This document shows, piece after piece, positions 29,009-33,333 of a DNA stretch of 64,000 bases. Position 1 is the stretch's first letter; each line of letters opens with the position of its first letter. Position numbers and translations under genes: made by a program. Source of the stretch: a virus; the IMG/VR virus record IMGVR_UViG_3300008261_004773, positions 1 through 64,000 of that record; one strand, written 5' to 3'. Under the pieces are notes generated by a model. That model was not told the DNA's origin. It ran no database searches and was given only the letters and a program-made list of their open reading frames with translations.

Positions 29009-29020
29009 CTGATAGGGTTT

Positions 29021-29110
29021 GTAGGTTGTAACGTCCCTTTTGGACACCCGTATTCAAAATCCAATTGATGTCAACGGTCAGTTGGGATAATCTGTTGACG
29101 AAAAACCTAC
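29021..29110 (+). ncRNA. Candidate structured RNA with pseudoknot
   Basis: Sits in a 106-base gap between two tRNAs. GTAGGTT (29021-29027) closes with AACCTAC (29104-29110). Inside are a hairpin GTCC/GGAC (29033-29036 with 29042-29045), a 7-bp helix CCAATTG/CAGTTGG (29061-29067 with 29079-29085) and a 6-bp helix GTCAAC/GTTGAC (29070-29075 with 29094-29099). The last two interleave as an H-type pseudoknot. No anticodon arm or T arm, so not a tRNA. T4 also carries non-tRNA stable RNAs in its tRNA cluster. Confidence 0.5.
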
Positions 29111-29114
29111 TCAA

Positions 29115-32511: not shown

Positions 32512-32612
32512 TGTTGAGTAGTGGATACGTTATTGGGCTCAAGCTCATTAAGGCGAAACGGTACGCTTCTCTTTTCGAGACCACGTTATGGGTTCGAGTC
32601 CCATCTCAACAA
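32512..32612 (+). other. Atypical tRNA-like element
   Basis: 101 bases with a perfect 7-bp acceptor TGTTGAG/CTCAACA, discriminator A and a canonical T arm ATGGG-TTCGAGT-CCCAT, but about 31 extra bases between acceptor and a plausible D arm (GGCGAAACGGTACGCT), and only a 4-bp stem with a 5-base loop (TCTC-TTTTC-GAGA) where the anticodon arm should be. It also contains a direct repeat (acgttattgggctcaag against acgttatgggttcgag). It may be a degenerate or intron-like tRNA or a tRNA mimic. Confidence 0.5.
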
Positions 32613-33029: not shown

Positions 33030-33104
33030 ACGCGTGTGTAGCTCAGCTGGAAGAGCAGTGGTCTCCAAAACCAAAGGTCGTAGGTTCGATTCCTACCATG
33101 CGTG
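33030..33104 (+). tRNA. tRNA-Trp(CCA)
   Basis: 75 nt. Acceptor ACGCGTG/CATGCGT, discriminator G, anticodon loop CTCCAAA giving CCA, T arm GTAGG-TTCGATT-CCTAC. The 5' end could be off by one or two bases because the acceptor-D junction is longer than usual. Confidence 0.9.
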
Positions 33105-33112
33105 CAAAAGGT

Positions 33113-33203
33113 TGATTGGGGAATGGTGATATCAATGACTCGAGAGTGTATTTCGGTCGGTATCATCGGAGTTGGGAGAAATACACCTGAGTAATGCCAA
33201 TCA
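33113..33203 (+). ncRNA. Candidate structured RNA with pseudoknot
   Basis: Fills the 142-base gap between tRNA-Trp and tRNA-Tyr. TGATTGG (33113-33119) closes with CCAATCA (33197-33203). Inside, ACTC/GAGT (33138-33141 with 33089-equivalent at 33189-33192) leads to GTGTATTT/AAATACAC (33146-33153 with 33179-33186). The hairpin loop segment TATCATCG (33161-33168) pairs over 8 bp (two wobbles) with TGGTGATA (33124-33131) outside the hairpin, an H-type pseudoknot. No tRNA arms are present. Confidence 0.55.
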
Positions 33204-33205
33204 TA

Positions 33206-33238
33206 AAAGGGGTCGTCCACGCAACCATCTTCCCCTTT
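33206..33238 (+). other. Hairpin after the structured RNA
   Basis: AAAGGGG (33206-33212) pairs with CCCCTTT (33232-33238), loop of 19 bases. Could be a weak terminator or processing stem; no strong T-tract follows. Confidence 0.45.
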
Positions 33239-33246
33239 CCTAATTT

Positions 33247-33328
33247 GGGAGTATTGCCTAGCGGCAATGGCAGAAGACTGTAAATCTTCCCTCTTTCGAG
33301 TTCGTTGGTTCGAGTCCAGCTACTCCCA
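33247..33328 (+). tRNA. tRNA-Tyr(GTA)
   Basis: 82 nt type II. Acceptor GGGAGTA/TACTCCC, discriminator A, anticodon arm GAAGA-CTGTAAA-TCTTC giving GTA. Confidence 0.96.
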
Positions 33329-33333
33329 CTTAT

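Follow-up and report, generated by a model that had tools for sequence, protein, structure and literature searches.

A structured element between two tRNA genes

The stretch analysed here (the window) comprises the first 64,000 nucleotides of IMG/VR record IMGVR_UViG_3300008261_004773, which derives from a large, uncultured phage and is 96,829 bases long. It carries an array of some 20 tRNA genes, among which a single copy of the element under study is found. As originally described, the element is flanked by genes for tRNA-Trp (33032-33105) and tRNA-Tyr (33247-33329), both identified by ARAGORN. It is indeed distinct from a tRNA, as neither ARAGORN nor the Rfam tRNA model gives a match within 33106-33246. 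The nearest named relatives of the phage terminase belong to Flavobacterium phages and are distant (27.6% identity); a Bacteroidota host is plausible on this basis.

The element had been delimited at 33113-33203. Conservation among relatives extends it to 33109-33241, thus adding a terminal helix (P0), a second hairpin (P4) and a loop-loop contact (P5). From sequence comparison, the predicted fold is closed by two helices, P0 and P1. It further contains an H-type pseudoknot, formed by P2, P2b and P3, and a hairpin, P4, whose loop touches loop 3 of the pseudoknot through four base pairs (P5). Its parts, all on the + strand, are as follows.

33109-33241, +: whole structured RNA, 133 nt, bounded by conservation and by terminal P0 in 83 distinct relatives
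33109-33111, +: P0, 5' strand AGG, pairing with CCT at 33239-33241
33113-33119, +: P1, 5' strand TGATTGG, pairing with 33197-33203 (7 bp)
33120-33123, +: junction GGAA, conserved (GGGAA is nearly invariant among relatives)
33125-33133, +: P2, 5' strand GGTGATATC, pairing with 33159-33167
33137-33139, +: P2b, 5' strand GAC, pairing with 33156-33158
33146-33154, +: P3, 5' strand GTGTATTTC, within the P2 loop, forming the pseudoknot helix with 33178-33186
33156-33158, +: P2b, 3' strand GTC, pairing with 33137-33139
33159-33167, +: P2, 3' strand GGTATCATC, pairing with 33125-33133
33168-33177, +: loop 3, GGAGTTGGGA, in which GTTG (33171-33174) pairs with 33222-33225 to form P5
33178-33186, +: P3, 3' strand GAAATACAC, pairing with 33146-33154
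33190-33195, +: junction containing AGTAA, which is invariant in alignment A4
33197-33203, +: P1, 3' strand CCAATCA, pairing with 33113-33119
33206-33212, +: P4, 5' strand AAAGGGG, pairing with 33232-33238
33213-33231, +: P4 loop, in which GTCCAC and ACCATCTT are invariant and CAAC (33222-33225) is the partner in P5
33232-33241, +: 3' strands of P4 and P0, CCCCTTTCCT, with the pairing and covariation of these two helices

The GGAA junction and the AGTAA opposite it resemble a loop-E (bulged-G) internal loop. No promoter-like site and no terminator-like hairpin were found at the element on the + strand.

Comparative evidence for the fold

Folding of the window sequence by itself gave a minimum free energy of -25.9 kcal/mol (z = -2.0), and 6 of 200 shuffled sequences folded equally well, so that chance remained possible from the window alone. 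The initial claim that such a structure is unlikely to arise by chance is thus marginal for the single sequence and gains its support from covariation among relatives. We regard this comparative evidence as decisive for the predicted fold.

We counted pairs over the full structure in a MAFFT alignment (A4) of the 38 members that share the window's pseudoknot arm (type A, see below). Across 42 pairs, 99.5% of 1595 cells are standard pairs, and 22 of the 42 pairs have changed on both sides. The covariation score (0.451, versus 0.199 in shuffles) was reached by no shuffle, and pairing collapses to 35-51% when partners are slid along the alignment. Far from lacking compensatory changes, the homologues thus display them in about half of all pairs, and the pseudoknotted RNA originally proposed is upheld, including its P3 helix (100% paired, double changes in 6 of 9 pairs). 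The other helices within the arm behave similarly: P2 is 98.8% paired with double changes in 6 of 9 pairs, and P2b is 99.1% paired with double changes in all three pairs. P1 is paired in every cell and has double changes at three pairs. Three of the helices originally drawn are present, as P1 (7 bp), P2 and P3 (here 9 bp, between the loop and a downstream strand). The 4-bp ACTC/GAGT helix of the original prediction did not survive, as one of its pairs fails in 13 of the 38 relatives and another in 21; the covarying GAC/GUC pairing (33137-33139/33156-33158) takes its place.

As the structure was partly picked from the same sequences, a scan blind to structure offers a more independent test. Covariation was computed between all columns of the 38 equal-length type-A members with no structure supplied, and the null distribution was obtained by reassigning each column's changes at random to the branches of one and the same tree. 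Pairs above every null value include three in P4, two in P2 (33128-33164 and 33133-33159), one in P3 (33152-33180) and one in P5. P2b was also recovered: its pairs 33137-33158 and 33138-33157, together with a third P2 pair (33130-33162, E=0.1), had E values from 0.03 to 0.12. The pair 33139-33149 also exceeded every null value though it lies outside the model; it is non-complementary in many members and probably reflects a lineage effect.

The outer frame can be followed beyond type A. P0, P1, P4 and the first three P5 pairs are kept in 79-83 of the 83 distinct full-length members, whatever their type. Each of the three P0 pairs is formed in 82-83 of the 83 members (with G-C replaced by A-U on both sides in two of them), and each P4 pair in 79-83. 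The last P5 pair (33174-33222) fits in 81 of 83 members, being G-C in 37 and U-G in 44, with two exceptions; within the 38 type-A members, the counts are 20 G-C, 17 U-G and one G-G. The same fold thus recurs in relatives with letter changes matched between partners, and we therefore consider it a real RNA family.

Two other pairings were tried and rejected. One joined GGTTG at the 5' end (33110-33114) to CAACC of the P4 loop; as the 5' strand barely varies while the P4 loop does, the partner of CAACC is loop 3, not the 5' end. The other was a stem between GGGGAATGG and CCATCTTCCCC, with an HDV-like topology, which was dropped because P4 covaries instead.

Relatives and exchange of pseudoknot arms

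A pattern built from both strands of the pseudoknot helix gave the first relatives, located in other viral contigs between tRNA-Trp and tRNA-Tyr, and a small upstream ORF used as query also led to close relatives. A covariance model (R1) from seven of these close relatives (alignment A2) then recovered divergent relatives in terminase-related records, in which the pseudoknot arm is altered and the two flanking segments are retained. With a pattern taken from the 3' segment (AANNNGNNGTCCACNNNACCATCTTC), at least 119 stretches were listed in IMG/VR. Together with the earlier loci, these yielded 83 distinct full-length elements, relatives being present in about a hundred other phage sequences overall. 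The window element itself scores 157 bits with a covariance model.

Searches elsewhere returned little. Rfam gave nothing above thresholds and only chance-level matches below them (E up to 10), and blastn against 50,697 phage records gave no match at E up to 1. Covariance model R2 found no match in Flavobacterium phage immuto (the nearest named phage), a Microcystis phage and two huge-phage records. One scan of bacterial and archaeal genome contigs with one conserved pattern produced seven matches, none of which was scored by R2; this single-pattern scan thus revealed no bacterial relative that would indicate a mimicked host RNA.

Three types of pseudoknot arm are swapped at the same locus within a nearly constant frame: among the 83 elements, 42 are of type A, 30 of type B and 11 of type C. 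Type B keeps the pseudoknot with helices of unrelated sequence, while type C has a clear and strong P2 and a weak P3. The best example of a swap concerns a type-B and a type-A locus (L202 and L205), whose flanks are 94.2% identical over 4.8 kb aligned but whose elements are only 71% identical. By comparison, with flanks at 88-92% identity, most of the listed same-type pairs have elements that are 91-98% identical, the exception being L177 and L212 (element identity of 73%). Similar flanks around dissimilar elements therefore show an exchange of alleles at the locus. Such exchange would be expected of a factor with type-specific partners, and neutral recombination can produce it as well.

Copy number is low. 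With R2, we found one copy per large phage record searched, in records of up to 321 kb, a second match in one record (G061) being at chance level. In two records (L171 and L244), a second copy lies in tandem with the first (L171:1371-1492 and L244:2327-2448, the latter on the - strand). This paralogue has the same outer frame but a different, apparently pseudoknot-free interior, and its P4 loop, which reads GCACCC, has lost the match to loop 3. L200 has a shortened copy from which the pseudoknot is missing. Together, the truncation and the paralogue show that some phages can do without the interior or replace it.

Gene neighbours

In most members, the downstream neighbour is a tRNA gene a few nucleotides away. 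The next downstream tRNA is tRNA-Tyr in 58 of 93 counted matches (a count that takes in a few chance matches); elsewhere it is Trp, Val, Met, Asn, Arg, Thr and others, and in two records an ORF follows. No consistent downstream ORF was found among relatives, the ORFs that follow being different. Upstream neighbours are variable (tRNA-Trp, Asn, Val or Lys, or ORFs), and frequently consist of an ORF or a distant tRNA. In three loci (L199, L258 and L262), ORFs resembling homing endonucleases by eye (GIY-YIG or HNH motifs) lie directly or closely upstream of the element.

Possible functions

The reading we favour, to which we give about an even chance, is that, in a group of large phages, the element would be a stand-alone gene for a non-coding RNA, kept as a unit of the tRNA array and acting in trans via a bound partner. 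Four alternatives have to be weighed against it.

The element might be a new self-cleaving ribozyme cutting a tRNA precursor. By analogy, theta ribozymes are small, structured, HDV-like RNAs adjoining phage tRNA genes, with a cleavage site within 5 nt of tRNA 3' ends (PMC10879173). A location in tRNA arrays, with many members a few nucleotides after a tRNA, and a pseudoknotted fold with invariant loop nucleotides are compatible with such an activity. However, the element differs from theta ribozymes in nesting a hairpin-type pseudoknot inside P1 and in having a second hairpin, and HDV-like and other Rfam ribozyme models do not match it (Rfam matches were at chance level only, E up to 10). Moreover, the array of some 20 tRNAs holds a single copy, and relatives are frequently preceded by an ORF or by a tRNA some distance away; both points make cleavage of tRNA precursors unlikely.

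We also consider it improbable that the element is a cis-acting part of a polycistronic tRNA transcript, namely a spacer, a stability signal or a processing signal for the downstream tRNA. The predominance of a closely following tRNA-Tyr would fit such a role, but the fold is also found ahead of many other tRNAs and, in two records, ahead of an ORF. In addition, such a signal would have little need of a pseudoknot, a loop-loop contact or discrete allele types.

A structural or scaffold role, with self-assembly through an intermolecular P5, is unlikely too. It draws on an analogy with GOLLD and ROOL, structured non-coding RNAs of phages and prophages that are often near tRNA islands, have an unknown function and form RNA-only oligomers, or cages (PMC12286853). 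Our element likewise lies near tRNA genes in phages, and its covarying 4-bp loop-loop contact could be intermolecular. Yet GOLLD and ROOL are much larger (many GOLLD members exceed 800 nt, several times the size of the element), and their Rfam covariance models give no match to it even at E up to 10.

Lastly, the element has an H-type pseudoknot, and riboswitches often contain such pseudoknots with conserved loops. Control of a protein gene in cis, by a riboswitch or otherwise, is nonetheless very unlikely and largely excluded by gene context, because a tRNA follows and no consistent ORF does, besides the lack of a terminator-like hairpin on the + strand. The structured RNAs manA and wcaG of T4-like phages differ in the same respect: manA is found in putative 5' UTRs of metabolic genes, which wcaG also seems to regulate (PMC2864571), whereas our element does not occupy a 5' UTR ahead of any consistent gene class and is mostly followed by a tRNA. 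Their Rfam models do not match the element either.

Returning to the reading of a trans-acting RNA gene, the element would be co-transcribed with the tRNAs and released by processing of its neighbours, through RNase P cleavage before the downstream tRNA and 3' processing of the upstream one. It would then bind a partner, most likely a protein, via its conserved loops, and the exchangeable pseudoknot arm would set partner specificity. An inhibitor or decoy of a host or defence protein is the role that would fit best.

Precedents exist for parts of this scheme, GOLLD and ROOL being phage RNAs that likewise lie near tRNA islands (PMC12286853). The tRNA cluster of phage T4 encodes stable RNAs other than tRNAs (species 1 and 2, RNA C and D), whose function is unknown and whose likeness to our element, by description, is one of context alone. 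The type III antitoxin ToxI is a pseudoknot, and the element is likewise an H-type pseudoknot RNA. RNA antitoxins (ToxI and the AbiF RNA) neutralise a toxic or defence protein by binding to it (PMC12373285), and an abiF-type RNA has been reported from a T4-like cyanophage (PMC9964418). However, the element lacks the tandem short repeats of ToxI, is single-copy in nearly all records searched and has no adjoining toxin gene, tRNAs rather than a consistent protein gene coming next. Rfam models of RNA antitoxins do not match it, and the resemblance would be one of functional analogy only. As no Rfam model of the closest known systems matches the element, it is a previously uncatalogued RNA family in a known setting.

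Other RNAs in the tRNA arrays

We clustered by sequence 340 inter-tRNA gaps of 45-260 nt from 83 loci. Many of them group into further conserved sequences, mostly apparently non-coding, and for several clusters the predicted fold is better than that of alignments with shuffled columns (z from -4 to -12). Examples with significant consensus folds are L069:3404-3500, L184:560-624 and L035:9342-9421. Some clusters are small ORFs, and some resemble tRNAs overlooked by ARAGORN. Among the matches listed by Rfam for ten array loci, there are only tRNA and tmRNA. Allowing for such ORFs and tRNAs, the number of new RNA families in these arrays exceeds a few.

The window itself contains a structured non-tRNA element between tRNA-Gly and tRNA-Ala (29010-29114). 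Its relatives in L019, L035, L073 and L217 keep, by eye, a closing helix and an H-type pseudoknot, the second pseudoknot helix varying in matched fashion (GTCAAC/GTTGAC, TTCGCA/TGCGAA, TTCAC/GTGAA). Similarly, L035, L037 and L045 carry, between tRNA-Trp and the RNA studied here, a second non-tRNA element of the form CTTCAG...CTGAAG (e.g. L035:8958-9040) with a similar GGAGCNGGGAG motif.

Other gaps hold tRNA-like sequences missed by ARAGORN. The one at 32512-32612 of the window (Rfam tRNA score of 26.5 bits, for a threshold of 29) has a 7-bp acceptor stem, a good T arm and a long insertion before an apparent D arm. Probable tRNA-Ser genes with odd T loops and, by eye, TGA- and GCT-like anticodon loops occur at L180:6808-6937, L192:5045-5144 and L272:7610-7782. 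Finally, the window encodes a phage tmRNA (46958-47352, - strand) with the tag GETFAKLSAIGLIREESVVAA, and another tmRNA lies at L077:11371-11765.

Implications

In phages, tRNA arrays tend to be viewed as lists of tRNAs. The one analysed here hides a well-defined RNA family, absent from Rfam, with strong covariation and more than 80 distinct full-length members. The family lends itself to direct tests, thanks to a defined fold, a single copy and natural allele types. We tentatively propose that its members, with their exchangeable pseudoknot, could act as decoys or inhibitors, specific to each type, that target host defence or RNA-processing proteins. The family could also be the best conserved within a large, uncatalogued set of structured RNAs in the tRNA arrays of these phages. 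The element shows that such arrays hold further structured RNAs worth cataloguing.
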